A stretch of DNA of 64,000 nucleotides from a virus: the IMG/VR virus record IMGVR_UViG_3300036861_001052, positions 62,001-126,000 of that record. The stretch is one strand, 5' to 3'. Below the pieces are notes generated by a model. The model ran no database searches. It was not told where the DNA came from and saw only the letters and a list, made by a program, of their open reading frames with translations. Below, piece by piece: positions 26,816 to 58,180 of the stretch; the first letter of the stretch is position 1, and each line of letters opens with the position of its first letter. Both the position numbers and the translations under genes were made by a program.

Positions 26816-29272
26816 GTGAGAGGCAAGCACAAAGCGTACGGTCGAGCGTTTCCAATCCGGGAAGCGGACGTCGGCTCGTACAAGGTAGCGCGTCACCGTC
26901 CCTATCGAGCGAATCCGATGGGCGTGACGACGCTGTCGAGCGTCAACGGCCCGGGCGCGTATTCCGCGCGTGCGGCCTCGAGTGGGCTTTCCCGCGCCGA
27001 GCGTCTGCGGCGCGCGCGCCGGCTCATGGAGAACCGAAGCATGCAAGGACACAAGGTGCACAGGGCCAAGTTCGTACGGCGCATGAAGGCAAACAGCGGT
27101 CGGATGACCTCGAACGCTGCCCGACGCCGCGCGGGCAAACGCCTCGCTGCGTTTCAGGCAGCTCGGCGTCGTGGGCTTTCGAAGGAAGCGGCGATGCGGA
27201 GCGCGTCCCGGAAGTTTCCGAAGAGTCGCCGGCGTGGCTACCGCCGAAACGAGGGACCGGCTCAGGTCGCTTCCCCCGCCTACCGGTCGGGCCACGAGCG
27301 GATCTACGGGAAAAAGGCTCAGCGAAGGCGCGCCGCCGCGGCAAAGCGGAAAGCGCATCGCGCCGAGGTCGCCGCGCGTAAGCGCGCTCGTAAGGCTGCC
27401 GCTCGCGCGAAGAAGCGCGCAGCGATGACGCCGGAAAAGCGCGCTTCGCTCCGAAAGCGCCGCCGCAGGGCGAGCTTTCCTAAGCAGTACAAGAAGGTGC
27501 GGGGCCGAAGGGGCAAGATGCACCGAGTGCGAGTGGCGTACGGACCGTACCGCCGCGCGCGCCTTTCCGATCCGAGGTCAGGCCGAAAGCGCCTCTCCTA
27601 CACCTATCGAGGCAAACGCGGCAAACGCCGCAAGATTCCGCAGTGGGCCGTTGCCGGAGCAGTCAGTGCGCGCGACTACAAGACGTCGAGCGTGTACGGG
27701 CGCGCCCGGGAGCGGATCGCACGGCGTCGTAAACGTGCTGCCGCTCGCGTAGAGCGCAGCGGAGATGCGTTCGTTCCGAACGCGGGAGCAAGAAAAGTGG
27801 CAAGACGAAGAAAGCGAAAAGGGCACAAGCGTTCCCGCCGGGGACGTCGCAAGGTGAAACGGACGCGCGGTCGCGCGCGGCGCCGATCGGCGGGTCACAC
27901 CGTCCGCAGGCGCAAGAGGCGCAAGTCAGCGAGCCGCCGGACAGCCCGGAAGCACCGTGCGAGCCCGCATCGCCGGAAGAAGCGTCGTGCGCACGCGAAG
28001 AGGCGTTCCACGCGCCGCCGGTCCAAGCGCCGGTCGCACCCGCGTCGGATCGGTCGCCGCAAGGTGAGGCGCCTGAGAAAAGGCATCTACCTGGTCGCGA
28101 ACCGCCGTCGCCGTCGCTCGCGCCGCCGCTACGAGGAAAACCGCAGGGTCCGCCGGCATCGTCGTCGGAAGCTCGCGGCAAATCCGCGTCGCAGGCGTCG
28201 CTCGCGGCGTCACGTCGCAAACCGCAGGCGCCGAACGCATCGGCGTCGGAGCTACCGTCGTAACCGGAGCTACCGCCGTAACGGCTTCATGGGCGACTTG
28301 AAGACGCTCGCGAAGATGGGCTTCCTGGTCCTCGGCGGCTTCTTCCTCCACAAGGGGATCACGGGCGGAATCATTCGGGCGCTGACGTCTACGGACGCCT
28401 CGACCGGAGCGATGACGTTCGCCTCGCTGCCGATGATCGGAGCCGACGGCAAACCGACGGTTCTCGCGACTTGGCAGAAGCCGCTCGTCGGAGGCCTGTT
28501 CGGCGGTCTCGGCATCTTCGGGATCTCCAAGCTCCCGATGAAGTCGGACACCCGGAATGCGCTGTCAGCGGGCGTGGTGACGTCGTTCCTTCAGAGCCTC
28601 GTCCACACGATCCTGACTGTCGCAAACCAGCCGGAGGTCCTCTCCTATCTCGAGGGTTACCAGAACAGCGCAGCGTACTCGCTCCGCGGTACCCGAGGGA
28701 AACGGCGCCGTCACCCGATGCGAGGCCTCGGCGTCGCACGGAACGCGACGTCGATCATGCCGCACTACGCACCTGTCGGACAGTTCCAGCAGGCCGCAGC
28801 CGGCATGGGCGAGTACTTCGCGGCTCAGAGCGGCATGGGTGAGTACTTCGCGGGTCCCGGCGTCGAAGGCGTCGGTCACTACGAGAAGGCTGGCCCCTTG
28901 GCGCTTCAGCCCTCGACGAGCCGGATGGGTAACCTTCCGATCGACGACGGCATTCGCCCCGACTCGAACCTCGACCACGTGATGGATCTCGCGGAAAGCG
29001 CGGCCGGTCTCGGCCAAGGTTTCCGTCAGGCCGCCGCGGGAGTCGGGGCGGGCCCGGGTTACCGGCAGGCAGCTGCCGGTATGGGCGAGTACTTCTCGGC
29101 TGCCCCGCAAGACGGCGGCTACAAGGAGTTCTCGGTCCCGACGCAGTCGCAGTGGATCCCCTCGGGGCCCCTCTGGGCCGGCACGATGAGTGCCGACGCT
29201 GCGTACACGGAGAGCGAGCTCCCGGCTGGGATCCTCCAGGGTCCTGGCGGAAACGGAGTGCTCTCGGGCTGA
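26816..29272 (+). CDS. Protamine-like Arg/Lys-rich membrane protein with GEYF repeats
   Basis: 818 aa. The first 490 residues are extremely basic, with long Arg runs such as NPRRRRRSRRHVANRRRR, like DNA-condensing proteins. A hydrophobic region follows (MGFLVLGGFFLHKG, LVGGLFGGLGIFGIS, FLQSLVHTIL). The C-terminal 190 residues repeat GMGEYF three times and have MRGLGVARNA and AAGLGQGFR. It could tie the packaged DNA to the virion membrane (inference). GTG start; it precedes the capsid genes. Confidence 0.7.
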   Translation: MRGKHKAYGRAFPIREADVGSYKVARHRPYRANPMGVTTLSSVNGPGAYSARAASSGLSRAERLRRARRLMENRSMQGHKVHRAKFVRRMKANSGRMTSNAARRRAGKRLAAFQAARRRGLSKEAAMRSASRKFPKSRRRGYRRNEGPAQVASPAYRSGHERIYGKKAQRRRAAAAKRKAHRAEVAARKRARKAAARAKKRAAMTPEKRASLRKRRRRASFPKQYKKVRGRRGKMHRVRVAYGPYRRARLSDPRSGRKRLSYTYRGKRGKRRKIPQWAVAGAVSARDYKTSSVYGRARERIARRRKRAAARVERSGDAFVPNAGARKVARRRKRKGHKRSRRGRRKVKRTRGRARRRSAGHTVRRRKRRKSASRRTARKHRASPHRRKKRRAHAKRRSTRRRSKRRSHPRRIGRRKVRRLRKGIYLVANRRRRRSRRRYEENRRVRRHRRRKLAANPRRRRRSRRHVANRRRRTHRRRSYRRNRSYRRNGFMGDLKTLAKMGFLVLGGFFLHKGITGGIIRALTSTDASTGAMTFASLPMIGADGKPTVLATWQKPLVGGLFGGLGIFGISKLPMKSDTRNALSAGVVTSFLQSLVHTILTVANQPEVLSYLEGYQNSAAYSLRGTRGKRRRHPMRGLGVARNATSIMPHYAPVGQFQQAAAGMGEYFAAQSGMGEYFAGPGVEGVGHYEKAGPLALQPSTSRMGNLPIDDGIRPDSNLDHVMDLAESAAGLGQGFRQAAAGVGAGPGYRQAAAGMGEYFSAAPQDGGYKEFSVPTQSQWIPSGPLWAGTMSADAAYTESELPAGILQGPGGNGVLSG

Positions 29273-29447: not shown

Positions 29448-31028
29448 ATGGCAAAACTGACGAACGTCAGAGAGCGTGTGCATCACGCGGACGTTCGGTG
29501 AAAGCGAAAGCTGGTGCCCCTCGGCGGTAACGCCGGGGTGATAACTGGGTGAATCAAACCGTTTCGTGATGAGAATGAGAACTTCAGACACAGACATCGC
29601 CTGGCTTGCTGGAATCGTGGACGGCGAGGGCTGCTTCTCCGTGAAGCGTCCCATCGTTCGCAAGACCTACAAGAAGGGGCGAGTGACGAGCTACCAAGTG
29701 TGGCTGGTCGTCTGTAATACGTCCGAGCCGATGGTACGTCGGGTCACGGAGATCTTCGGATCTCTCGGGATCGGGCACCAGCCGGTGAGGCGCGTCTGGA
29801 AGGGAAAGAAGGCAACTCGGTGGCAGTACTGGGTGCACGTCGCGCGAAAGCACGAGCTCTTGCGTCTGACGGAACTCCTCCTGCCTTTCCTCGTGGCCAA
29901 AAAAGACGAGGCCGAGATCGTGCGCTGGTTCCTATCGAGGGCTTGCAGCACGAGGCAATACGTTCCCACTCTTCTCGATCGTACCGCGCTCGAAGCGATG
30001 GCCACGATCAAGCGACACGGCGGGGAAGCCCCTGCTGAGGTGCGAGAGCTCCTTCGCGAGGTAATCCCGAGCCAAGCCGTTTCTGGGATCCGTGCGGCCC
30101 ACGGATTGGAGACGGAAGGCGTAGAGACTAGGTCGGTGACTCCCAAGAATAACCCGACCCACGAGTGCCCGGCGCCCCTCCACTTGGTGGGGTGATGAGA
30201 TAGCCCGACACTCCGGGAAACCGGAGAGCCCGCATAAACAGCGGGCATGACAGAAGCAAGCAGCCGTTTTACGACACGCTCATCCGAACCTCCGGTCTCG
30301 GCGGTTCCATCCCCAAGGTGAATCAGCGGACCTCGCTGTTCACGAACCAGGCTCGCCAGGACGACATCAACGCCCTGACGAACCTGCCGAACGGTTCGAC
30401 GCTCCCGTCCGACCAGAGCCACGTGACGCTCGCGCTTCGCGTGTTCATCTGGTTCCGCAATCCGCAGATCCGCGCAAGCGGCTTTGCGAACGGTGCGATC
30501 AAGAACAACGGCGACTTCTCCCAAGCGGGAGCGGCGGCGTTCTTCTCGCAAGGCGGAGTCGACCCGAACGGCGCGACCGCGGGCCCCGGCGCCTTCAACT
30601 ACCCGGGCTCGATCGAGGACGTCTACCGCCTGTACTGGCAGTCGGAAGAGCAGCTTCACTGGAGCTACGGCACCGGTGACAAGTTCTCGATCACGAACAT
30701 GCCGACGAAGTACTTCCCGGACGGCGGTGGCCTCTGGGGTGACCTCGGTGGCTCTTCGGATCTCATCCACTTCAACAACGGCACGCCGGACCACACGGCA
30801 ATTCTCCGGCTCGCGCGCGCGATCCTTCTGCCTCCCCGGCAGAACATCAAGTGCGCCGCCGAGATCGTGCCCTTGCCCGACGGTGGAAACGCCCAGATCG
30901 CTGGATCGACCGTGACCGGCAACGGCCGGAACATGCTGTCGCTCCAGGACAACCTGAACGCGACCGACGGGATCAACAAGGTGATTCAGTTCACCTTCGA
31001 CGGTCTCTTCGCCCGCGACGTTCAGTAG
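29448..31028 (+). CDS. Candidate capsid protein, gene split by a group I intron
   Basis: Exon 1 is only about 11-20 bases (MAKL...). Exon 2 resumes near 30257 in the frame KQPFYDTLIRTSGLGGSIPK and runs to 31028. Splicing 29458 to 30257 gives about 260 aa starting MAKLKQPFYDTL. Exon 2 has no in-frame ATG, so splicing is needed for a normal start; GTG 30318 lacks a ribosome-binding site. Beta-rich, no membrane helix, no cysteine-rich part. Its abundance-type neighbours and leader suggest a major virion protein, maybe jelly-roll; fold not provable here. Confidence 0.6.
29459..30256 (+). mobile_element. Group I intron with homing endonuclease
   Basis: About 800 bases between a stop-containing 5' part and the recovered 3' frame. 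A strong stem CGAACGUC/GACGUUCG (29461-29497) encloses a second stem GCGUG/CACGC, in the position of P1-P2. Core-like elements follow: AGAGACUAGG at 30123-30132 resembles the R segment and GAUGAGAUAGCCCGAC at 30194-30209 the S segment. Near the 3' end is a stem GCCCGC/GCGGGC. Exact splice sites are uncertain: 5' at 29458 or 29467, 3' G at 30253 or 30256. Confidence 0.75.
29569..30195 (+). CDS. LAGLIDADG homing endonuclease, intron-encoded
   Basis: 208 aa, starting at ATG 29569 (GTG 29566 and ATG 29575 possible). WLAGIVDGEGCFSVK is a clear LAGLIDADG motif at residues about 13-27. The later helix HELLRLTELLLPFLVAKKDE fits the single-motif class, which acts as a dimer. It cuts intronless alleles and so spreads the intron. 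The stop codon lies in the intron core, as usual for such ORFs. Confidence 0.9.
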   Translation: MRMRTSDTDIAWLAGIVDGEGCFSVKRPIVRKTYKKGRVTSYQVWLVVCNTSEPMVRRVTEIFGSLGIGHQPVRRVWKGKKATRWQYWVHVARKHELLRLTELLLPFLVAKKDEAEIVRWFLSRACSTRQYVPTLLDRTALEAMATIKRHGGEAPAEVRELLREVIPSQAVSGIRAAHGLETEGVETRSVTPKNNPTHECPAPLHLVG

Positions 31029-31076
31029 CTTCGAACGCAGGTTGATCGCGCGCCTGAGCCAAGCGCGGTACGGCAC

Positions 31077-31109
31077 GGACGGCGGTTTCCCTCAAAAGAG
31101 CCGCCGTCC
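31077..31109 (+). terminator. Hairpin between two capsid genes
   Basis: GGACGGCGG (31077-31085) pairs perfectly with CCGCCGTCC (31101-31109) over a 15-base loop. No T-run follows, so it may be an RNA-processing or stability element rather than a true terminator. The next gene has CGGAGG 18 bases ahead of its start. Confidence 0.4.
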
Positions 31110-31139
31110 GGTACTCCTCACGGAGGCACGAAAAAAGAC

Positions 31140-32132
31140 ATGGCAAGTTGGGAACAGGTCATTCGAGACCTGCAGAACACGGCAGGCTTTGCCGCCGCAA
31201 AGGCGAAGGAAGCGATCGACAAGGCAGGCCGAAACGAGAGCGCCCTCGCGCTCGTCCGGCAAGAGCTCGAACGCGAGCAGCGCTCCATGCAAGCGCTCGC
31301 CGACGCGCTCGAAAAGGTCCAGGGCCGCGGCGCGGGCTACGGTAACGGTAACGTCGGCGTCGACGAGCGCGTGCGCTACATCGAGTCGATCCCGGGTCGC
31401 AGGATCCCGTTCGACTTCGTCGTGACGATTCCTATTTCTTCGAACTCGGTCTCGCAGGTCCAGGGCACGAAGACCGTGAGCCAGGACGGGCCGTTCGTGG
31501 CGGTTGCGCGCTACGCGGCGTTTCAGTCCGCGTTCCAGTTTCAACGGGTAGACCCCGTCACGCAGGAGAAGGCGGTCTTTCAAGGACGCTCCTTCGGCCG
31601 TTTTCGTCCGATGCACTCCATGTGGGACCTGAACGATGCCTCGACCGGCGTCTTTCAGCCGACGACCGGCATCGCTCAGCCGGGCACGGGCGCGCCGATC
31701 GTGGCGGCTCCCTCGAACATGTCGTCCTTCCGCACGATGGAAGGCGACTTCATCATCCAGATGCTGAATCAAGGCGCTGGCTACCCTCGCGACAATCAGG
31801 ACGGCGGCATTCCGAGCGCCTGGTACTCCGAGAGCATCAACAGCCCCTTCCAGCTCGGAGCCTTGGACTTCTTCGAGCGCGGCGAGACGATCCAGTGGAA
31901 GGTCACGCCGACGCACGTCAATAACCCGCCGGCAGGTAACCTTTCGGGTTACGCTGCGGGTGGCGTGTTCCCGTTCCTCGCGAGCCAGTACGACGTGCAC
32001 GAGGGCATCAACGACCAGCTCGATCCCGAGGCAACGAGCGATCCCATCACGAGGCTCCCCGACGGGATCTTGTGGATAGGGATGCACGGGATCAAGATCG
32101 TGCAGCCCCCCGGGCCGGTGAGGCTCACCTAA
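31140..32132 (+). CDS. Candidate second capsid protein, coiled coil plus beta domain
   Basis: 330 aa. Residues about 1-65 are a helix with coiled-coil features (LVRQELEREQRSMQALADAL), then a Gly-rich hinge (GRGAGYGNGNVG). The rest is beta-rich (IPFDFVVTIPISSNSVSQV, FQLGALDFFERGETIQWKV). The strand pattern and size fit a jelly-roll type virion protein, by inference only. Sits between the intron-split gene and another beta-rich protein of similar size. Confidence 0.55.
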   Translation: MASWEQVIRDLQNTAGFAAAKAKEAIDKAGRNESALALVRQELEREQRSMQALADALEKVQGRGAGYGNGNVGVDERVRYIESIPGRRIPFDFVVTIPISSNSVSQVQGTKTVSQDGPFVAVARYAAFQSAFQFQRVDPVTQEKAVFQGRSFGRFRPMHSMWDLNDASTGVFQPTTGIAQPGTGAPIVAAPSNMSSFRTMEGDFIIQMLNQGAGYPRDNQDGGIPSAWYSESINSPFQLGALDFFERGETIQWKVTPTHVNNPPAGNLSGYAAGGVFPFLASQYDVHEGINDQLDPEATSDPITRLPDGILWIGMHGIKIVQPPGPVRLT

Positions 32133-32140
32133 GGAGAATT

Positions 32141-33046
32141 TTGACCCTCCGATCACATTTGACGCCGCGGCAGGTCAAGGGGCTCGGCCTCGGAGCCCCG
32201 TCGCCGCCGGCGGAGCCCGTACGCGTGCTCGATCCGTGGCGAGGCGATCCGCCTCCTCCTCAGCCCTACGAGGGCGAGGGGATCAGCCACGGCTGCGACG
32301 CTTCCCGGGTCCAGCTCGCCGGAGGGGCGCTGAACACCCTCCTCGTCCATCCCGAGGTGACGCCCTTCGAGCAGCTCTACCGGCGCCTGCCCGAGGAGGG
32401 GATGTTTCTCGACTCGGTCGGCCCGGAGAATCCGTTCACGTTCGAGCTCGGGGCGTTCCGCGTGCCGGACACGTTCACGCTGCTCTTGTTCGATTTGAGG
32501 CCAGACATCTATCGCTTCAGCGGCGTGGATCCGGGAGACACGATCCCGGTCGAGGCGCGGCGCTTCAGCTCGGTTCTCGGCTTTCAGATCACGGTCGACC
32601 AGCGCCAGCCCGCCAATCTCCTCTACCAGCTCGATCCGGCGCCGATTCAGACGTTTCCCGAGGCCTTCACGAATCCGATCGGCGCTCCCGGCGAGCTCCC
32701 GCCCGCCATCGCGGCGGCAATCGGTTTCCAGAACGGATCGCGCTTCAACCTCTCTCAGGCGACGAGCGTCGCGACGGCTTCGGGCGCCGGAGACCAGCTC
32801 CAGCCACAGAGGCCGACCCGGTACGGGCCCTTGTCCGTGCCGTTTACGATGTACATCCGGCCCGGGCAGACGTTTCAAGTCCGCTGCGTGATCTTCAATC
32901 CGGTGCCGAGCCCGATTGCGTTCATCGAGTACGACATCGCTGGCATGCTCATGCCGGACACGTGGGTGACGACGATGACCGAGTGCATGAAGCCGCTCTC
33001 GAACGCTTCGCACGGTCCAGGCTCTCTCGGGGGAGGTCCACGGTGA
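32141..33046 (+). CDS. Candidate third capsid protein, 301 aa
   Basis: AAGGAG at 32131-32136 is followed by TTG at 32141; no ATG fits. It starts with VKGLGLGAPSPP, then a beta-rich domain (FELGAFRVPDTFTLLLFDL, FSSVLGFQITVDQ) and a C-terminal strand set (VPFTMYIRPGQTFQVRCVIF). Three consecutive beta-rich proteins of 260-330 aa resemble the paired single jelly-roll or vertex proteins of tailless viruses, but similarity is not demonstrable by eye. Confidence 0.55.
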   Translation: MTLRSHLTPRQVKGLGLGAPSPPAEPVRVLDPWRGDPPPPQPYEGEGISHGCDASRVQLAGGALNTLLVHPEVTPFEQLYRRLPEEGMFLDSVGPENPFTFELGAFRVPDTFTLLLFDLRPDIYRFSGVDPGDTIPVEARRFSSVLGFQITVDQRQPANLLYQLDPAPIQTFPEAFTNPIGAPGELPPAIAAAIGFQNGSRFNLSQATSVATASGAGDQLQPQRPTRYGPLSVPFTMYIRPGQTFQVRCVIFNPVPSPIAFIEYDIAGMLMPDTWVTTMTECMKPLSNASHGPGSLGGGPR

Positions 33047-40170: not shown

Positions 40171-42927
<2,757 letters not shown>

Positions 42928-42952: not shown

Positions 42953-44457
<1,505 letters not shown>

Positions 44458-46540: not shown

Positions 46541-46810
46541 ATGCCGAGATCACATCACCTCGACTGGGAGACTCGAGCCGAGTGTCTGGTCGCCATTGCC
46601 GACTCGTACGGCGAGTACCCGCCGGTCGGCGAGACGCCCGAGTGGTGGAAGGCGTTCGAGAAGTGGTACCAGGAAAAGAAGAAGGACGCGCGTGACGGCG
46701 TCGTCTCGGTCGTCCTTCGTACCGAAGCGCGTCCCTACGAAGACGAGGCCGAAGAGGAAGAGGACGAAGACGAGGACGAAGACGAGGACCCCGAGGACGA
46801 GCCGGAGTGA
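46541..46810 (+). CDS. Small protein with polyacidic tail, 89 aa
   Basis: Folded N-terminal part (MPRSHHLDWETRAECLVAI, ETPEWWKAFEKWYQEKKK) and a tail of about 25 residues of only Glu, Asp and Pro. GTGA overlap with the glycosyltransferase. Unknown. Confidence 0.55.
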   Translation: MPRSHHLDWETRAECLVAIADSYGEYPPVGETPEWWKAFEKWYQEKKKDARDGVVSVVLRTEARPYEDEAEEEEDEDEDEDEDPEDEPE

Positions 46811-48174
46811 CGCTCCCCGGCGGATTCGAGGGTCTCGAGCGCTTCCGCGCCCCGAGCTCCATCCTGGAGGGCGACGGTAAGCCTCCGGATCCGACCGAGG
46901 CGGAGCTCGAGAGAGCTCTCGTCGCCCCTGGCGGCGACGCGCTCCTTCCCGCCGGCATCGTCTACCAGGCGGGCTACGAGCAGGCGGGAGACGGTCTCGC
47001 GCGCCACGCGCGCGCGCAGGCGCGCGCCCTCGCGCGCGCGGGGGTGGCCGTCTCTCTTCAGTCCCTTCCCACGTCACGCATGATGCTCGAGGACGAGATC
47101 GAGGAGAGCGTCCGGCGCGAGGTGCAGCACTTGCGCATGACCTCTGTTGGCTCGGCGCCCATCGCGATCCGGCAGATCATTTTACACAGCCACCGGTATC
47201 TCGAGAACGTGGTCGCGCCCGCGGGAGCGCGCCTCGCGGACTTCGACAACGAGATGAAGGTCTACCGATCGACCGTGGTCTACACGTCGTGGGAGCGGAG
47301 CACGGTGCATCCAGAGGTCGTGGAGATCTTGAACCGATGCGGCCGCGTCTGGGTCCCCTGTAACATGAACTACAACGTCTTCCGCAATGCCGGCGTTAGA
47401 AACGTGGACGTAATCCCCTGCCCGTTCGATCCGGAGACGTCGCTCACGGCCGGCGTCGCCGCGCCGCGCGGCAAGGAGACGGCGCCCTCGGGCAAGCGCT
47501 TCTACGCGATCGGAAAGTGGGAGCCGCGGAAAAACTACCACGCGCTTATCGGAGCGTTCCTGTCGGCCTTCACGATGGAGGACCGGGCGTCGCTCTTTCT
47601 GAAGACGCACGAGTGGGGCGCATGGAAGGACTACCCGTCGATCGGCGAGAGCGTCGAACACTGGCTGTCGGATTTCCTGGTCAGGGATAACGGCTGGACG
47701 CGGGACAATTACGGTAAACGCTTGCGCGTCGTGACGAAGAAGCTCCCGGACGAGAAGATCCTTGCGATTCATAGGGACAACAACATCTACGTCACGTGCT
47801 CTCACGGCGAGGCGTGGGATCTCCCAGCCTTCGATGCGCGGGTCGCCGGTAACCGCTTGGTCTACACGGGCTGGGGCGGAGCCGAGGACTACGCCGCCGC
47901 GGAGGACATCAGGATCCTCGTCGAGCACGGTAAGGTTTGTGAGCCAGTGCATCCGGGCTACGGGTGGGAGTCTGGCGCGGAGTGGGCGAGGTGCCCGGTT
48001 GCGGATATCATGCATGCGCTTGTGGAGGCGGAGCCGCCGGCCCGGCGGATGCTCCCTCCTGATCTCTACCGGGACTTCGGAAGCCACGCCGTCGGCCGTC
48101 GTATGCTCATGAGCCTTAATAACGTGTCGGCCGGCACGGTAGAGGATCTTCTCGTGCAGGGAGGGTTCGGGTGA
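46807..48174 (+). CDS. Glycosyltransferase, GT4-like (GT-B fold)
   Basis: 455 aa, GTG start. GKRFYAIGKWEPRKNYHALI is the typical start of the C-terminal domain with the Lys-asparagine pair; ILAIHRDNNIYVTCSHGEAW and LPAFDARVAGNRLVYTGWGG occupy the position of the E-x7-E donor site. It transfers sugar from a nucleotide donor. In this genome the Thr/Ser-rich collagen fibres are possible acceptors (inference). Confidence 0.8.
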   Translation: MTLPGGFEGLERFRAPSSILEGDGKPPDPTEAELERALVAPGGDALLPAGIVYQAGYEQAGDGLARHARAQARALARAGVAVSLQSLPTSRMMLEDEIEESVRREVQHLRMTSVGSAPIAIRQIILHSHRYLENVVAPAGARLADFDNEMKVYRSTVVYTSWERSTVHPEVVEILNRCGRVWVPCNMNYNVFRNAGVRNVDVIPCPFDPETSLTAGVAAPRGKETAPSGKRFYAIGKWEPRKNYHALIGAFLSAFTMEDRASLFLKTHEWGAWKDYPSIGESVEHWLSDFLVRDNGWTRDNYGKRLRVVTKKLPDEKILAIHRDNNIYVTCSHGEAWDLPAFDARVAGNRLVYTGWGGAEDYAAAEDIRILVEHGKVCEPVHPGYGWESGAEWARCPVADIMHALVEAEPPARRMLPPDLYRDFGSHAVGRRMLMSLNNVSAGTVEDLLVQGGFG

Positions 48175-49827: not shown

Positions 49828-50054
49828 GCGAGTGGCACGTCGTTCCCTTCGTTCAGAAGGTCCGGATGTACGCTCTCGCGAAGTTGAGCGGGCACGACCA
49901 ATATCAGCCGACCGGAGAATTCGTCTGCACCACATCGGACATTGCTCGCGTCACAGACGATGACTGGCGCTCATCGCGATGCAGGACATATCACCGGTCG
50001 CGTGCAGTGGCGGAAGCGCACGCGCGCAAACTGAATGCGCGGAATCAAAAATGA
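49824..50054 (+). CDS. Hypothetical protein, 76 aa
   Basis: The ATG overlaps the previous TGA. Starts MSEWHVVPFVQKVRMYAL; Arg/His-rich helix at the end. It has a somewhat lower GC content than neighbouring genes. Coupled to the glycosyltransferase behind it. Unknown. Confidence 0.55.
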   Translation: MSEWHVVPFVQKVRMYALAKLSGHDQYQPTGEFVCTTSDIARVTDDDWRSSRCRTYHRSRAVAEAHARKLNARNQK

Positions 50055-51160
50055 CGAAGTCCGTGCGGCTCTACGGCTACCTCCATGGCGAATCGTCCTT
50101 CGCGCAGGTAACGCGCGGTCTCCAGCGGACGCTCGAGGCGATGGGCGAGCTCGCCGGGCTCTATCCGGTCGATATGGACCCGGAGCTCGCACCGAGAGAG
50201 CTCCGCGGCGGCGAGAGCGCGCCTCTCTCCTTGAACTGCGGCTCCCCCGAGGGACTTCTCCGTGCGCACCGCTCCGGCGATCACAAGGAGCACTGGCTGC
50301 TTCTCGCCCCGAACAGCCAGGGCCTTCCGCATGGCTTCGTGGAGGGGCTCTTGAAGACGTCGGATATCTTGCCGCGCGGGACGCTCTCCGGAGGGATCCT
50401 CGCGCCGAGCCGGTGGGCGGCAAGCGTGTGCCAGGACGCGTTCCCCGAAAAGAAGGTCCTCGTCGCGCCGCACGGCGTCTCCCCCGAGGTCCACTCCGTG
50501 AATCCGAAGGATCTCGCGGCGAGCCGCCGAGACTTCAAGAACGGCCTCTTCGACGTCCTTCACATGGCGAGCACGGAGGCGGACAGGAAAGGCACTCGGC
50601 AGCTCATGCGCGCGTGGGCACACTTGAAAAGCCGACGGGAGCTACCGAGCGTGGCGCGCCTGCACATCATGATGAACCCGACGCACTGCTCGAAAGTGAA
50701 GTGGTGGGCAGCGGATCTCGGTCTCTCCGAAAACGACTACAGCGTGGCCCCTGGCCTCGTCCACGATCGCTACCAGGTTGCCAATCTCTACCGGGCCATG
50801 CACCTCGTCTGTCAGCCGTCGCGGGCGGAGGGCTTCGGCCTGGTCCCGCTCGAGGCGCTCGCCTGCGGGACTCCCGTGGCGATCACGATCTCGACGGGGC
50901 ACTCGGAGTACGCGTCGACGGGCCTTCCGGGCCTCATGGAGGTGCCCCACGGCCCCTTGGGTCCGATGGACGATTACCCCGGGTCGACGGCGCCCACGGT
51001 CACGGCGGAGGCGATTGTCCATGCCCTTTGGAGTGCGTACGATAGGTGGGAGAGTCTCTCGGCGCAGGCAGCCGACAACGCCGCCCCACTCGCCGAGGAG
51101 TGGTCCTGGGAGAAAAAGAACCGCCCTGCCCTCACGAAAATGATCGCGGAGAGCCCATGA
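50051..51160 (+). CDS. Glycosyltransferase, GT4 family
   Basis: 369 aa. The C-terminal domain has VLHMASTEADRKGTRQLMRA and the E-x7-E donor motif in PSRAEGFGLVPLEALACGTP near residue 258. Typical GT-B enzyme of group 1 type. Second transferase of the window; it may act in sequence with the one at 46807 on fibre glycans or host surface sugars. Confidence 0.85.
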   Translation: MTKSVRLYGYLHGESSFAQVTRGLQRTLEAMGELAGLYPVDMDPELAPRELRGGESAPLSLNCGSPEGLLRAHRSGDHKEHWLLLAPNSQGLPHGFVEGLLKTSDILPRGTLSGGILAPSRWAASVCQDAFPEKKVLVAPHGVSPEVHSVNPKDLAASRRDFKNGLFDVLHMASTEADRKGTRQLMRAWAHLKSRRELPSVARLHIMMNPTHCSKVKWWAADLGLSENDYSVAPGLVHDRYQVANLYRAMHLVCQPSRAEGFGLVPLEALACGTPVAITISTGHSEYASTGLPGLMEVPHGPLGPMDDYPGSTAPTVTAEAIVHALWSAYDRWESLSAQAADNAAPLAEEWSWEKKNRPALTKMIAESP

Positions 51161-51883: not shown

Positions 51884-52258
51884 ATGTCCGACCCAGAACC
51901 CGCGACGGAGTCCCCCGAGGCAACCCCGGCCCCAGAGAGCGAGAGCGGCTGGCTCATCTATCACGAGCGTCCCGTGATGCTCCAGCTCCGACAGCCGTAC
52001 ATCGGCGTCACCTACAACGCCAGGGCAGCGGACGGCGTCTACCGCGCGTCCATGAATGCCGAAGGGCACGTGCGCGCGAGTCCCATCCTGAGCGGAGTGC
52101 TCTTCGTGCGTCAGAGCGGAACGCCGAGCGGCGTCCTCTTGATTCTGAGAGTGCCAATTCCGGAGACGCACGACTTTACCCTCATCGCTCTTCATCCGGA
52201 CGATGTGCTCTACTGCACGCACATCCACCAGGCTGATAGCCGCATCGTCACTCCGTGA
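51884..52258 (+). CDS. Hypothetical protein with Pro/Glu linker, 124 aa
   Basis: AAAGGAG lies ahead of the ATG. The first 22 residues are a disordered Pro/Glu/Ser tail; a beta-rich domain follows (GVLFVRQSGTPSGVLLILRV). Stop overlaps the next start by four bases. Unknown. Confidence 0.6.
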   Translation: MSDPEPATESPEATPAPESESGWLIYHERPVMLQLRQPYIGVTYNARAADGVYRASMNAEGHVRASPILSGVLFVRQSGTPSGVLLILRVPIPETHDFTLIALHPDDVLYCTHIHQADSRIVTP

Positions 52259-52884
52259 TCCTCGGCCGCACGAATTCGTTCCGGCGCTGGCTCTTCGATC
52301 GCGTCTCGAGCACTCCCTGGGCAACGAAGTCGATGTCGGATGCGGACGTCGAGCGCGCGGCCCACGAGCTCGGACTCGACGCGGAGTTTTTGCTCGAGGT
52401 GCGCGCCGAGACGAGGATCCGCCGGAACAAGCGCGGCTTTGCGGGACAGCTCAATGAAAAGAGGATGCTCTACCAGTACCATCTCTTCATGCCGGAGGTG
52501 GTCTGGAACGACTGGCACCGCGAGTGTGCATTCCGGGGCGTGGGAGGACCGATCCTACTTCGGAGTCTCATCCACGATTACCTTCTCGGCGACAGGGAGC
52601 CGCTCCCGGCAGGATCCTGGTACTGGAAGGGCAAGCGCTACGAGATGGGCGAGAACAAGAAGAGATGGAAGTTTCTCGAGCGCGCGGCAATGCCCCATGG
52701 GGCCAGGCGAGCTCTGCGCGCGCGTGCGGAGCGGCTCGGCACGATGCCTACGGCGGTTGCCCGCGCGCTCGTCATCGAGGCGATGAGCGGGCTTCACAGG
52801 GACGTGCCGCTCGTCGAGACGGGGATGATGTTCGATGACGAGAGGCGATATTTGGCCCGGGTTCCGGGGGCGCTTGACCGGTAG
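52255..52884 (+). CDS. Hypothetical basic protein, 209 aa
   Basis: GTG start in a GTGA overlap. Rich in Arg and Trp (WLFDRVSSTPWATKSMSD, HRECAFRGVGGPILLRSLI). Its C-terminal helix pair AMPHGARRALRARAERLG, then TMPTAVARALVIEAM resembles the helix-turn-helix of ribbon-helix-helix proteins. Ends just before a promoter. Unknown. Confidence 0.55.
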   Translation: MILGRTNSFRRWLFDRVSSTPWATKSMSDADVERAAHELGLDAEFLLEVRAETRIRRNKRGFAGQLNEKRMLYQYHLFMPEVVWNDWHRECAFRGVGGPILLRSLIHDYLLGDREPLPAGSWYWKGKRYEMGENKKRWKFLERAAMPHGARRALRARAERLGTMPTAVARALVIEAMSGLHRDVPLVETGMMFDDERRYLARVPGALDR

Positions 52885-52910: not shown

Positions 52911-53366
52911 ATGGCCATCGCCGTGGGCGACCGGGTACGACCGAGGCTGTCGAGCTCAGCGCTCGCCGCCTCCCGCCTGAATCCCCAGCCGCCGATACTC
53001 GGGGTCGTGACCAGGATCGTGGCGGGCGCCCCGAACCTGATCTTCGCGACCATCGCCGATAACGGCATCACGTGGTCGATCAACGCGAGCGCCCTCTCCC
53101 CGAACGGAGTCAGCGAAAGCTCGCTCGACCAGATCACGGCGCCCGATCCGACGATCCGCGACGCCTTCATCGACAAGGTCGTCGTCGGCTTTCGTTCGGC
53201 GATCTCAGATCCCCTCGATCTCTCCGAGCAGTACACGTCCGAGTACATCGGCATCGTCGTCGATGTCTACAACGTGAACGCCGTCGCGACCGTGCTCATC
53301 AAAACGCAGACGGGGGTCTTCTACGAGCTCCCCATCACGCGCGTCGCAATCCTGCCGTTTCGGTGA
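52911..53366 (+). CDS. Beta-rich hypothetical protein, 151 aa
   Basis: Predominantly beta strands (ILGVVTRIVAGAPNLIFATI, YIGIVVDVYNVNAVATVLI). It begins MAIAVGDRVRPRL, like small SH3-type or hub proteins. No cysteines. With the next gene it forms a two-gene unit. Possibly a virion protein; not recognised. Confidence 0.6.
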   Translation: MAIAVGDRVRPRLSSSALAASRLNPQPPILGVVTRIVAGAPNLIFATIADNGITWSINASALSPNGVSESSLDQITAPDPTIRDAFIDKVVVGFRSAISDPLDLSEQYTSEYIGIVVDVYNVNAVATVLIKTQTGVFYELPITRVAILPFR

Positions 53367-53369
53367 ACC

Positions 53370-53852
53370 ATGGCAGACGTACAAAAGGTCGTTGCGGCTC
53401 GCATTCAGGCGACGTCGCTTTCCGCCGTCCAGCAACCGAGCCTCCAGCCCCAGGGCCCGCGCTTCGGTAACATCATCGCCGAGGAGTCTAGCGAGCTCCC
53501 CCCGAACGAGATCCGGACCGTCCTCTGGGACAATGGCCTGGTGGACGACGTGGACGCCGACAGCGTCGCGGCGCTCAATCTCGATGTCATCGAAAATCCA
53601 GCGGCCGACGTCATTTCGACCTTCGAGGGACAGGTCGTCCTTCGTATTGCGCCAGAGGGCGCCGTGCCGGGCGACGCGGCAGGCGGCACGAGCCGGGAGT
53701 TTTCCGGGCTCGTCCTCGCCATCTACAAGCGAACTCCGATCGAAGCGGAGGCGGGAAGCGGCGACGACTTCCTCCTCGTGCTCAATTCGTCGGGCACTTA
53801 CTTCGAGGACCTCGCCGGATCTTTCACGGTGCTCCGAAACCAGACGCCCTAA
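53370..53852 (+). CDS. Beta-rich hypothetical protein, 160 aa
   Basis: Beta-rich, acidic (VISTFEGQVVLRIAPEGAVP, LVLAIYKRTPIEAEAG). Pro-Gln-rich N-terminus. It ends in a stop codon that overlaps the stop of the convergent recombinase gene (CTAA), so there is no space for a terminator. Function unknown. Confidence 0.6.
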   Translation: MADVQKVVAARIQATSLSAVQQPSLQPQGPRFGNIIAEESSELPPNEIRTVLWDNGLVDDVDADSVAALNLDVIENPAADVISTFEGQVVLRIAPEGAVPGDAAGGTSREFSGLVLAIYKRTPIEAEAGSGDDFLLVLNSSGTYFEDLAGSFTVLRNQTP

Positions 53853-56800
53853 AACGGCGCTGTCATCGCCGTCATCATGCGGAGCGGGCTCGGCATGACC
53901 TCGCTCGCGCTCCGGATGGGGCGGAGCCCTGCCTCGAAGGCGTTCCGGGTGAGGAGGCGCCTCGGTGGGGCGTTCGGCAGGAGCTCTTCGTCCTCGTCCT
54001 CGCCGCCGACGGAGAAGTAGGTCTGGGGCGCTTTGGGCGCCTCGAGCACGGCTCTTCGTGGGCCCCCCTCCCGCGAGACGACCACGGTCGGCCGGCGCCG
54101 CATGACCTGAATATTGCCGCTCTCGACGGCAGATCGAGCGATGGCCTCGGTGACGTCCGGGCTCGGGAGGGCAATTTCTGCCCGGACGGAATCCTGGACG
54201 AGCCCTGCCTCGAGCACTTCGGCCGCTCCTGCCTCGTCGAGGCCCTCCTCGACGGCGATCCGGCGGAGGTCGTCCTCGCGGAGATCTTCGCTACTCCGGA
54301 GGATCCTGCGGGAGGCCTGCCGGAAGCCCGCCAGGTAGCGGAGGCGCGCCTTTTGTCCCGAGAGGCCGAGCTCGGCGGCGAGCCGCTTCTCGACTACCTC
54401 GGGGCAGGGAACGATCCAGGCGATGTAGGAGAGCATGACCGAGTAGAGAAGGCTGTACTCACTCGAGCGCTCGCCGCCGCGCAGGACGGGGATCCCATGG
54501 CGCCGGACGTGCTCCCACATGCCGCGCGCCGCCCTCCGCATCACGCACTCCGAGTCCCGCCCGTCGTAGCGGCGCCCGAACTCCTCTCGGAACGCCGCCG
54601 TGTGCACGATGGTCCGCTTCTTCGTGTCGATCCGGAAGGAGTCCTTGTCGAAGAGCGTGCTCCGGAGAATGTTGGCGTCGACGAGCTCGACACTAGCCGA
54701 TGGAAACGCCGCACGCAGGAGCGCCTCGATGCGGGCGTCGAGGGGCCTCGGGAGAGACGGCCGCTCCACCTTCGGATCGCCGACGCCGAGTGCGGCGAGC
54801 CTTTCCGTGATGAGCTTGAGGGTCTCGCGCTCCCGCTCGGCCTCGTCTTTTTCTTTGGCGCGCGACGCCTTCCGGAGCGACTCGACGCTCTCGTAGTAGC
54901 CCTTGAGGAGCTCGCGGGCTTCGCTGACTTGGATCTTCATCGCCTCCTCGGCGAAGCCGACTTCGGCGGAGCGCTCTTTCTCGCGCGCCACCGACAGATC
55001 CTGCCCCGTGATGGATCCGATCCATTTCAGAAACCAGGAAAACTCCTCCGGACTCTTGTCGTAGATGTCGCGCACGGGATCATCTGCGAGAAACCAATCC
55101 GGGAGCTCTTCGGCCGGGCTCACGCCGACGAGAGAGGCCTCGGCAAACTTCTCCATGAAGGCCGTCCACTCTTCGTCGTCCCGCTCGCTCCCACGCGGCC
55201 GCTCGATGTGCTCGAACGCCCGCACCGTCGTCGTGTAGCGCTCGGCGTTCTGCTCGAGCCAGCGGGCGAGGTAGTCGTCGTCGTGGGCGCGGATGTCTTT
55301 ACCGACCCGCGCTTCCGCATCGAACGGCACGAACCGAAACTTCCCCTTCGTGCCGCGGGATAGGCCCCGCTGGATCTCCTGGAACGCTCCCCACCACCGG
55401 TCGAGCCCGAAGGCTTTCGTCGGCGAGGTCTTCATCCACTCGGCGCGAAGAGCCTCGACTTTGGCAAACAGCGTGGGCGCTTTGATCTCCGAATAGAGCT
55501 GCTCGCCCGCGAAGACCGGCAAGGGGGGCACCGTGACCGTCTTCGTCTTCCCCTCCTTGTCCCGTACGGTGACCGTGACTTCTCCGTGCTTGGAGGCAGA
55601 GCCGCGCGCAAACCACGGAAGGAGCGAGAGCTCGCCGAGGCCGTAGCTCAAGGGCCACGGGTCGTAGTGCTCGCCGAGCCAGTGGTCTGCCTGCACCATG
55701 TCCTTGCCACGGCGCTCGTAGAGCGCGACCGTGCCAGGGCTCTTTCCCTGGCGGGGCTCGACGCGGGTGAAGTGGATCTTTTCTCGCGCTTCGTCGCGGT
55801 GCGAGCCCGGTGGGGCGCCGATGTCCGCGTACGCGTAGAAGGGGGAGCCGCGGGAGATGTCCTTCTTCGGCGGCGCGGGCGGCTCCTCGTCCTCGGCGAT
55901 CGCGACGAGGCCTCCCTCTGTCGCGGGCTCGGGCCCCATCTTCGGCGACTCGGCGACGAGAGTCGGATCGGCCTCTTCCCTGGCTTGGACGCCGTAGGTC
56001 TCGATGACTCGCGCGGGGGGAGGCACGGCCGGCGGCGTCCCGGCAGCCGCCCCGCCGGCAATGTACTCGAGGATCTCGTTTTGGCCGGACAGCACATCGA
56101 GCTCGCGTTCGTCTTCGATGTAGCCCTCGGTCACGACCACGCTCGAGTGACCGAGGATGCTCTGGATCTCCCGGATGGGTTTCCCCCGCTTCGACATCGC
56201 CGTCGCGGCGAAGTGCCGGAAGGCGTGGCTGTAGACGAGGCGGCTCTCCTCTGCCGAGAGGCCCGCTTTCTCGGCGATGCGCTTTAGAAGCGCCCGGAGA
56301 CACCACCTCGACATGGGCCGGCTGTGAGCGGGCCGCACGTTGGGTTTCATCTCCTGATACTGCGAGGGGGAGTTCGCTCCCCAGAAAGCGACCGGAGGAA
56401 AGAGCGGCGCGTCGGTCTCTTCGGAGAGCGCCCGGTAGCGCCAGGCTGCGCCCCCGCGCGGGACGTAGAGCTGCCCCTTCGGATCCTCGGACTGAGCGCC
56501 GGGGGGCGCCGCGCGCGCCGCGAGGGCCGACTGAAAGTCGTAGAGCGATCGGAGCGCGTACGGCGGGTAGGGAAGCCTGTGATGGACGCCGCCCTTCCGG
56601 ACGAGCTCGACCATGACGGGAGCTGTGCGCGGCTCGAGCCAGCCGGGCGTCCTCTCGAGCTCGGTCGCCTTCGGCTTCTCGCGAGTGAGCCGGCGGGCCT
56701 CGGTGGCTCGGACTCCCGTGAGGACCAGAAACCAGAAGATGGCGGCGTCGCGCTTTTCGACGAGCGAAGGCCCGCCGGTCGCGGCGAGGAGGCGCTCGAC

Positions 56801-57688
56801 TATCGCCGGGGTGAGCCTGGGGCGCCGTGCGCGCGCGGCGCGCTTGTCGGCAGAGAGGCCGCGGGAGACTCGCGCCGAGATCTCGTCGAAGACGTTCGTG
56901 CGAACGAGGGGCTCTACGTCCACGTCGGCGCGGGCGAGCTCGGTCCATAGGCGGGAGAGAGCCGCGAGCCGGAGCGCAATCGCCGAGCGTCCGAGCGGCC
57001 GCGGCACGGGCAGGCTGTAGATGAAGATGTCTTCGAGCGGGACTTCTTTCGTGCCGCCGCCGTCGCGCGGCACGGTCACGGTAAAGACGTCGATGCCGAT
57101 CTGGGAGTTCTCCTTACGGAGCTCGGAGAGGGTCGGCGACCGGACGAGGAGATCGTGGAGCACCATGCGGCCGAGCTCGCTCGCGAGCCAGGTCCGGAGG
57201 CCGACGCCGCCCTCGTGGGCGCGCGCGAGCCCCGCCGGAAGGCCGGCGAGGATGCTCTCGAGATCGGCCGAGCCGAGAGACTTCACTAGATCGTAGAGCG
57301 CCAGCCGCTCGGGCTGGTCACCGTCCCTGAGGCGCTCTCCCTCGAGCGTGAAGGATTTGGTCGCGAGCCACTCGACGTAGTCCTCGGCGTCCTTCCGGCT
57401 CACCTCCCGCGGCAGGACCACCCGGCGCTTGACCGTTGCGCTCCACTCGAAAAATTCCGCGATGGCGCGGCCGTACTCCTCCCTGGTCCGGGGTGAGTAC
57501 CTGCCCACATAGGAGCTGTAGCGGCCGCCCGGCGCGTCGGGGCCGGCGATGCGGCTCAAGATCTCCGCGTACCTCTCGGTGACCTTGCGGCTCCCCTCGC
57601 CAAAGGCCTCGGTCCACCGCTCGAGAGCCTCCGGGGTGCGCTTGCCCCTCGCGAGCGCAAGCTCCGGACGGTTCCGACCGAGCATCAC
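53849..57688 (-). CDS. Giant tyrosine recombinase, 1279 aa
   Basis: Residues about 70-290 contain a core-binding-like region with long insertions. The catalytic domain at about 290-530 has R327 (LTGVRATEARRL), K365 (VRKGGVHHRLPY), H488 and R491 (SHAFRHFAATAM), H514 (LGHSSVVV) and Y523 (EGYI): the full set. About 750 further residues carry no domain I recognise. Normal XerC/D-type enzymes have about 300 residues. Start GTG 57688 or ATG 57685, directly behind a TATGGT box. It could integrate the virus, resolve dimers or move a segment. Confidence 0.85.
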   Translation of the reverse strand: MMLGRNRPELALARGKRTPEALERWTEAFGEGSRKVTERYAEILSRIAGPDAPGGRYSSYVGRYSPRTREEYGRAIAEFFEWSATVKRRVVLPREVSRKDAEDYVEWLATKSFTLEGERLRDGDQPERLALYDLVKSLGSADLESILAGLPAGLARAHEGGVGLRTWLASELGRMVLHDLLVRSPTLSELRKENSQIGIDVFTVTVPRDGGGTKEVPLEDIFIYSLPVPRPLGRSAIALRLAALSRLWTELARADVDVEPLVRTNVFDEISARVSRGLSADKRAARARRPRLTPAIVERLLAATGGPSLVEKRDAAIFWFLVLTGVRATEARRLTREKPKATELERTPGWLEPRTAPVMVELVRKGGVHHRLPYPPYALRSLYDFQSALAARAAPPGAQSEDPKGQLYVPRGGAAWRYRALSEETDAPLFPPVAFWGANSPSQYQEMKPNVRPAHSRPMSRWCLRALLKRIAEKAGLSAEESRLVYSHAFRHFAATAMSKRGKPIREIQSILGHSSVVVTEGYIEDERELDVLSGQNEILEYIAGGAAAGTPPAVPPPARVIETYGVQAREEADPTLVAESPKMGPEPATEGGLVAIAEDEEPPAPPKKDISRGSPFYAYADIGAPPGSHRDEAREKIHFTRVEPRQGKSPGTVALYERRGKDMVQADHWLGEHYDPWPLSYGLGELSLLPWFARGSASKHGEVTVTVRDKEGKTKTVTVPPLPVFAGEQLYSEIKAPTLFAKVEALRAEWMKTSPTKAFGLDRWWGAFQEIQRGLSRGTKGKFRFVPFDAEARVGKDIRAHDDDYLARWLEQNAERYTTTVRAFEHIERPRGSERDDEEWTAFMEKFAEASLVGVSPAEELPDWFLADDPVRDIYDKSPEEFSWFLKWIGSITGQDLSVAREKERSAEVGFAEEAMKIQVSEARELLKGYYESVESLRKASRAKEKDEAERERETLKLITERLAALGVGDPKVERPSLPRPLDARIEALLRAAFPSASVELVDANILRSTLFDKDSFRIDTKKRTIVHTAAFREEFGRRYDGRDSECVMRRAARGMWEHVRRHGIPVLRGGERSSEYSLLYSVMLSYIAWIVPCPEVVEKRLAAELGLSGQKARLRYLAGFRQASRRILRSSEDLREDDLRRIAVEEGLDEAGAAEVLEAGLVQDSVRAEIALPSPDVTEAIARSAVESGNIQVMRRRPTVVVSREGGPRRAVLEAPKAPQTYFSVGGEDEDEELLPNAPPRRLLTRNAFEAGLRPIRSASEVMPSPLRMMTAMTAPF

Positions 57689-57745
57689 GTTACCATAATC
57701 CTCGAGCCGCTCGATTCCTAGCGGCGTTTGGGCTTAGAGTCGGGT
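57689..57745. promoter_or_regulatory. Divergent promoter region
   Basis: Plus strand: TAGAGT at 57735-57740, five bases ahead of GTG 57746; the -35 match is weak. Minus strand: TATGGT at 57697-57692, three bases ahead of GTG 57688. Both units would be leaderless. The arms CGAGCCGCTCG form a short dyad between them. Confidence 0.45.
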
Positions 57746-58180
57746 GTGCTCCATGCCTCCCGTATCACCGACGATCTCTGGGTCGGCTCCGCTCCGCCTC
57801 CCGGGCACTACTGGGGACGCTTCGACGTGCTGGTCCTCGTCTCGAGCGAGTACCAGCCGGCGTCCCGAGGCTTCCCCGGGCTCATCGTCCGGCGCTTCCC
57901 CTTCGACGACACGGAAGCCATGTCGAAGGCCGACGTAGAAGCGGCCTGGCGCGCCGCCGTCGCCGTCGCCGAGGATATCCTCGCTGGCCACCGCGTGCTC
58001 GTGACGTGCAACATGGGCCGGAACCGCTCCGCGCTCGTCGGCGCGCTCGCCCTTCACATGCTGACGGGCATGTCGGGTGAGAAGGCGGCGAAGATCGTCC
58101 GCTCTAAACGGGTCGACGCCCTCGGCGTCCGTGCCCTCTCGAACCCGACGTTCCGAGCGTTTCTTCGGAAACTGCCTTGA
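57746..58180 (+). CDS. Dual-specificity phosphatase-like protein
   Basis: 144 aa from GTG 57746. VLVTCNMGRNRSALVGAL holds C88 and R94 in the C-x5-R loop, followed by Ser; FDDTEAMS near residue 54 could give the general acid. The histidine before the cysteine is Thr here, a known variation. It would remove phosphate from proteins or other phosphoesters. Divergent from the giant recombinase. TTG 57728 is the alternative start but lies before the -10 box. Confidence 0.75.
   Translation: MLHASRITDDLWVGSAPPPGHYWGRFDVLVLVSSEYQPASRGFPGLIVRRFPFDDTEAMSKADVEAAWRAAVAVAEDILAGHRVLVTCNMGRNRSALVGALALHMLTGMSGEKAAKIVRSKRVDALGVRALSNPTFRAFLRKLP

Follow-up and report, generated by a model that had tools for sequence, protein, structure and literature searches.

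Tyrosine recombinases usually have 300-400 residues and are controlled through borrowed partners. The gene described here, found in an uncultivated virus known only from metagenomes, encodes a member of this family about four times that size, which raises the question of what such an enzyme does for the virus and what its additional residues contribute. It lies in a window of 64,000 nucleotides (the whole stretch of DNA that was analysed), which corresponds to bases 62001-126000 of the 138,414-base IMG/VR record IMGVR_UViG_3300036861_001052. The coordinates of the gene, its parts and its neighbours are displayed in Table 1.

Table 1. Features of the giant recombinase locus (positions in the window; residues numbered from the GTG start).
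Feature	Position	Strand	Remarks
Giant tyrosine recombinase gene, 1279 aa	53849..57688	-	GTG start; coordinates include the stop codon
Residues 1-112: conserved N-terminal stretch (NRPELALxRGK) plus the SAM-like first segment of the core-binding domain	57353..57688	-	PF13495 weak match at 63-111
Residues 113-225: insert inside the core-binding domain, probable Fur/MarR-type winged helix	57014..57352	-	Structural alignment
Residues 226-284: rest of the core-binding domain, following the insert	56837..57013	-	Model
Residues 285-545: catalytic domain	56054..56836	-	Pfam, alignment, model
Codons of catalytic residues R327; K365; H488	56708-56710; 56594-56596; 56225-56227	-	
Codons of catalytic residues R491; H514; Y523	56216-56218; 56147-56149; 56120-56122	-	
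Residues 546-640: variable linker, proline-rich	55769..56053	-	Alignment
Residues 641-895: conserved region C1 (YDPWPxxYG, LLPxFAR, GLxRW, WFxxDDPV)	55004..55768	-	Without known homologue
Residues 896-975: predicted charged helical hairpin/coiled coil	54764..55003	-	pLDDT about 80-89
Residues 976-1195: conserved region C2/C3 (DSECVxRRAARGMWExV)	54104..54763	-	Without known homologue
Residues 1196-1279: variable stretch, then conserved tail (xPSxLRMMxAMTxPF)	53852..54103	-	
Dual-specificity phosphatase gene, CX5R motif	57728..58180	+	Divergent from the recombinase gene, 39 bp between
Convergent 160-aa gene, conserved neighbour	53370..53852	+	No family; stop overlaps the recombinase stop
151-aa conserved neighbour	52911..53366	+	No family
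209-aa conserved neighbour	52255..52884	+	No family; orthologue near the recombinase in L069 too
Glycosyltransferase, conserved in the recombinase block	49979..51160	+	
Second glycosyltransferase, conserved in the recombinase block	46807..48174	+	

A previous reading based on the letters of the window (the sequence-only reading) had taken this open reading frame for an outsized tyrosine recombinase with all six catalytic residues in place, about 290 residues before the catalytic domain and about 750 after it. These proposals hold. The window protein matched PF00589 (Phage_integrase) with 53.2 bits against a cut-off of 27.1, the proteins of the seven relatives described below also exceeded this cut-off, and the catalytic half was grouped with phage integrases in PHROGs (3.4e-19). 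The six residues were confirmed at the exact positions proposed and are invariant in all eight aligned homologues, and the domain is preceded by ~285 and followed by ~735 residues. The second codon is ATG, and the GTG start agrees with the conserved N terminus of the relatives. The recombinase is thus most likely catalytically competent, judging by these residues. An inactive domain, or a gene absent or broken in close relatives, would have spoken against the sequence-only reading, but this objection fails, since all relatives carry an uninterrupted gene with intact catalytic residues.

Concerning the fold, the models were built from shallow alignments of seven sequences, since only eight homologues occur in the collections used. 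The model of residues 1-560 had a mean pLDDT of 62.7, and its best PDB matches by Foldseek were Cre, XerD and XerH (probability ~1, E 1.6e-3 or worse). With VIA, the top match was XerA (Z 12.8 over 261 residues, with an rmsd of 14.2 that reflects a loose domain arrangement), and Cre (Z 11.4, 292 residues, rmsd 7.5) and XerH (Z 9.8) were also found; the catalytic domain alone matched XerD 5dcf with Z 9.9 and an rmsd of 3.4 over 165 residues. The repressors SroF and YopR were among the structural matches as well (Z 8.0-8.8). With moderate confidence, the N-terminal half is predicted to adopt a XerA/Cre-like core-binding and catalytic fold. No arm-binding domain, a fold of three strands and one helix, was matched in Pfam, and the N terminus was modelled as helices, with residues 1-17 at low confidence.

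The core-binding domain is split by an insert. Residues ~114-229 of the model align separately to the winged-helix domains of Zur, Nur, Fur, PerR and RosR (Z 8.0-9.2, rmsd 2.6-3.6 over 69-79 residues, VIA). A search of the insert against Pfam gave no family match, and for this reason the winged helix between the two core-binding parts is graded as probable.

The region after the catalytic domain is present in all eight homologues. Residues 605-1279 share 42-66% identity with the window protein in the first six relatives, and mean pairwise identity is 0.50 for residues 641-895 and 0.55 for residues 976-1120, close to the 0.58 of the catalytic domain; it is lower in the linker (0.40) and in residues 1196-1235 (0.30). 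The dN/dS values, which are rough because synonymous changes are near saturation, are 0.11-0.35 for the catalytic domain, 0.22-0.47 for residues 641-895 and 0.22-0.27 for residues 976-1195, and the C-terminal region as a whole shows about 0.2-0.6 depending on the part, which indicates purifying selection. As judged from this selection and from identity near that of the catalytic domain, the C-terminal half is a conserved working part of a real protein.

What this part resembles is less apparent. Residues ~640-1279 gave no match in profile searches of Pfam, PHROGs, NCBIfam, PADLOC or PDB, and a search of the viral genomes examined revealed no paralogues of the C-terminal segments. The model of the C-terminal half is poor, with a mean pLDDT of 45.6; confidence is limited to residues ~900-990, predicted as long helices, and Foldseek and VIA returned only generic helix matches for it. 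The region thus remains unrecognised, as in the sequence-only reading, and with so poor a model the missing matches do not show a new fold. The suggestion that a recombinase of this size may have extra DNA-processing or targeting functions is borne out in part: the extra regions are conserved modules and the insert resembles a winged helix, a combination that fits such functions.

Regarding its distribution, scans of 2.9 million viral contigs revealed seven further IMG/VR records with the gene, which together with the window make up all the homologues in the collections used. All seven encode full-length proteins (1249-1451 aa), with 37-66% identity to the window protein in the alignment, the most distant being 33% identical by BLAST. 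Collections of 50,697 phage records and 72,556 plasmids yielded no homologue of the giant recombinase, and two pattern-based scans, of limited sensitivity, detected none among 84,980 prokaryote genomes. When the catalytic domain alone was compared with the phage collection, the matches listed were weak (E 5e-4 or worse). The gene is single-copy in all eight genomes. The relative G004 also encodes an ordinary-sized tyrosine recombinase of about 316 aa (L042:13755-14705, - strand), and therefore the giant enzyme need not be the integrase of that virus.

The surroundings of the gene are also conserved. Its divergent pairing with the phosphatase gene is kept in 8/8 viruses, and the CX5R signature of the phosphatase in the seven sequences aligned. 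Seven viruses share a common block with the 160-, 151- and 209-aa genes and the two glycosyltransferases on one side and the phosphatase on the other; an extra gene lies between the recombinase and the 160-aa gene in G004 (L014), and a CRISPR-like array in G006 (L021). The eighth virus (L069) keeps the recombinase-phosphatase pair in reversed orientation relative to the 209-aa gene. The recombinase gene stands at the border of this conserved block and a variable region, and a conserved stretch 2-4 kb upstream that appeared to be non-coding corresponds to a missed gene of about 138 aa. Judging by gene content and order, the recombinase is a fixed core gene of this virus lineage.

Among known systems, Xer (XerA, XerC/XerD, XerH) and Cre share with the giant enzyme the core-binding and catalytic architecture, the residues and the fold. 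However, the giant enzyme adds the core-binding insert of about 115 aa and the ~735 C-terminal residues, no dif-like site was found, and the nearest NCBIfam models all scored below their cut-offs (XerA 61 against 220, XerD 50.6 against 329.6, XerC 49.8 against 335 bits). The telomere resolvases (ResT, TelK, TelN, TelA) are enlarged tyrosine recombinases with large accessory domains and likewise combine this chemistry with large extra parts, but the giant protein has neither a PF16684 match nor an adjoining telomere-like palindrome, and the assemblies are circular. The fungal Starship captains are long tyrosine recombinases with extra C-terminal sequence which belong to eukaryotic mobile cargo elements, whereas the giant gene is a fixed viral core gene; the two are likened here by description, not by sequence. 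The Brujita-type simple integrases are also phage tyrosine recombinases in which no arm-binding domain is detected, and the integrase in 5vfz matched structurally (Z 10.3, rmsd 14.6 over 255 residues), but that chain has 287 modelled residues, with no counterpart of the insert or of the C-terminal half.

Enlarged recombinases linked to mobile elements have been described, which are, like the giant enzyme, tyrosine recombinases with added parts: according to the available part of one study (PMC8138268), RitA has two core-binding domains, RitC an extra C-terminal helix, and some simple recombinases carry an extra domain of unknown function, DUF3701. The additions described in that part are single domains or helices, and none is comparable to the ~640 conserved post-catalytic residues found here. 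The same text counts 410 phages with the arm-binding domain and 27 with simple recombinases, and regards the domain as strongly predictive of phage or ICE mobility (PMC8138268). A search of the literature for tyrosine recombinases of giant or large size brought up nothing comparable from prokaryotes or viruses, and PADLOC gave no support for a defence system.

The genome itself offers some indications of the substrate. The first 127 bases of the record recur without change at its end, and so the genome closes into a circle of about 138.3 kb. G005 closes likewise, with a 123-bp end overlap, and in G004 the opening 9.9 kb recur at the end (87-bp and 9,799-bp repeats, with one offset). The virus has its own DnaB, and a DnaC-like loader is among its conserved genes. 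A perfect 22-bp palindrome, GAACGCCGTTCGAACGGCGTTC, occurs in two copies (L008:1660-1681 and L008:1755-1776) inside an initiator-like gene that precedes the helicase-loader-like and DnaB genes, and related palindromes are found at the same place in G005. This region is likely the replication origin. The DnaB, the DnaC-like loader and the origin-like palindromes make circular replication intermediates plausible.

Concerning the virion, neither Terminase_6N nor Terminase_6C was matched in the eight genomes. A conserved late module is found at window positions 8997-44770 (+), with about 17 mostly small proteins that carry a hydrophobic stretch resembling a membrane anchor, in most cases close to the C terminus, and the virus may be non-tailed or extremely divergent. 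Other observations concern this part of the genome. A conserved 818-aa protein (26816-29272, +) with 27% lysine plus arginine could be a core protein that condenses DNA. Three soluble proteins of 236, 330 and 324 aa (30318-33046, +), all highly conserved and without sequence matches in PDB, are candidate capsid proteins; the first is 77-92% identical across six viruses, and its annotated start is probably too far downstream, since the relatives share about 30 more N-terminal residues. Long collagen-like proteins with tandem repeats are encoded at 40171-42927 and 42991-44457 (+), and similar genes on the opposite strand elsewhere in the genome cause most of its long inverted repeats. Outside the window, the same genome carries a transposase-like open reading frame (L006:2748-4160, +; PHROG 2e-13), possibly an insertion sequence. 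Moreover, three relatives carry CRISPR-like arrays (L055:6967-7811, L031:13070-13900 and L041:4682-5222) with 12, 9 and 5 copies of a 36-bp repeat and spacers of 35-42 bp; the L055 array lies directly 3' of the giant recombinase, and some spacers have matches within the viral genome itself (33/35, 35/36 and 29/29 bases). These arrays resemble the virus-borne mini-arrays of archaeal viruses (PMC6858448).

The recombination site was sought in several ways. Searches for arm-spacer-arm palindromic sites common to the genomes gave coding or repeat matches only, although a diverged or single-genome site could escape them, and no intergenic dif-like site (two short inverted arms with a 6-8 bp centre) was recognised across the relatives. 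Long direct and inverted repeats were considered as att sites and discarded, as they correspond to the collagen-like fibre repeats, the CRISPR arrays and the end overlaps. No strong palindrome lies beside the recombinase gene, the notable pair being the one in the initiator-like gene, and no repeats above those of random windows of the same locus flank the recombinase-phosphatase pair. In synonymous conservation along the gene, the best window (0.224) stays below the median permutation maximum (0.233), and therefore no hidden att site was called. The sequence-only reading had found no att site or inverted end nearby, and repeats, palindromes and conservation give the same result here. Neither an att site nor, in the pattern-based scans of prokaryote genomes, an integrated copy was found, and the lack of an att site is weak evidence where no integrated copy can be compared.

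Considering these data together, we lean slightly towards a Xer/Cre-like recombinase, fixed as a core gene, whose target site lies in the circular genome of the virus itself. The resolution of replicated multimers into unit circles would be its outcome with a probability approaching, but short of, an even chance; the circular assemblies, the DnaB/DnaC-type module with its origin-like palindromes, the likeness to Xer and Cre and the universal presence in the lineage support it. Integration and excision in the host are a possible outcome, held more tentatively, for which the general prior and the PHROG class speak. Several points count against the preferred explanation: repeats, palindromes and conservation revealed no recombination site, circular assemblies also arise from terminally redundant linear genomes, no ParA-type partition ATPase was found in the genomes scanned, the C-terminal half has no recognised homologue and a poor model, and the winged helix is matched by structure but not by sequence.

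The enzyme could instead serve lysogeny only, inserting the circular genome at a host attB and excising it, with the extra domains handling arm sites and direction. This has a real but less than even chance of being right. Integration is the commonest role of phage-borne tyrosine recombinases, PHROGs places the catalytic half with phage integrases, and the border of a conserved block and a variable region, where the gene lies, is a usual int/att place. On the other hand, the limited pattern-based scans of the 84,980 prokaryote genomes gave no integrated copy, no att-like repeat lies near the gene nor a hidden site within it, no arm-binding domain was found, repressor-type HTH_3 domains exceed their cut-off in only 2/8 genomes, and one relative has a second, ordinary recombinase. 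It is improbable that the protein keeps the recombinase fold but does not recombine, serving to regulate through DNA binding or as a component of the virion, in the manner of the SroF and YopR repressors of SPbeta-like phages. The structural matches to SroF and YopR and the extra putative DNA-binding and coiled-coil parts would suit such a role, but those repressors have lost the catalytic residues, and here the six are invariant even at 33-37% identity, a conservation that is not expected of a non-catalytic role.

The new transposition-type system contemplated in the sequence-only reading finds little in its favour, and we consider it very improbable. Some tyrosine recombinases do move elements (Tn554, RIT, the Starship captains), and the recombinase-phosphatase pair is reversed relative to its 209-aa neighbour in L069. 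Nevertheless, the single copy in every genome, the neighbours common to all eight viruses and the constant pairing with the phosphatase argue against transposition, no flanking repeats rise above background, and no homologue was found outside the lineage in the phage, plasmid and pattern-scanned prokaryote collections. It is just as hard to credit a telomere resolvase (protelomerase) making hairpin ends on a linear genome. Such enzymes are enlarged tyrosine recombinases with extra domains and perfect palindromes do occur in the genome, but PF16684 (the ResT/TelK catalytic domain) matches none of the eight genomes at E <= 0.1, no long palindrome is located in the vicinity of the gene, the assemblies of three genomes are circular, and the repeated short palindromes sit inside the gene preceding the helicase-loader and DnaB genes, where a replication origin fits better than a telomere. 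Transposition, telomere resolution and a non-catalytic role are thus each disfavoured by a direct test: neighbours and copy number, PF16684 and the catalytic residues, respectively.

If the recombinase acts on a site in its own circular genome, it should work as other members of the family, which form a tetramer on two site copies and proceed through a Holliday junction. Four protomers would clamp two copies of the site, and attack by Y523 would join the enzyme to the DNA in a 3'-phosphotyrosyl link. Strand exchange would pass through a Holliday junction, as it does in Cre, XerH or XerA. With its inserted winged helix, the core-binding domain would probably gain a second DNA contact, in place of that made by the arm-binding domains of other integrases. 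For the C-terminal half we infer an accessory role, in which it would probably stand in for separate partners such as a directionality factor, a synapsis partner or an FtsK-like activator.

A further and rather unlikely extension is that this is a new recombinase class, in which the inserted winged helix and the ~640-residue C-terminal module replace accessory factors and the enzyme serves as genome-unit resolver of a lineage of ~110-140 kb without recognisable terminase, maybe non-tailed. A self-contained recombinase with built-in conserved domains would show how control can be carried in one chain, and the giant enzyme could give a separately controllable recombination tool. Furthermore, if the lineage is truly without terminase, the enzyme may explain how its unit genomes are produced.
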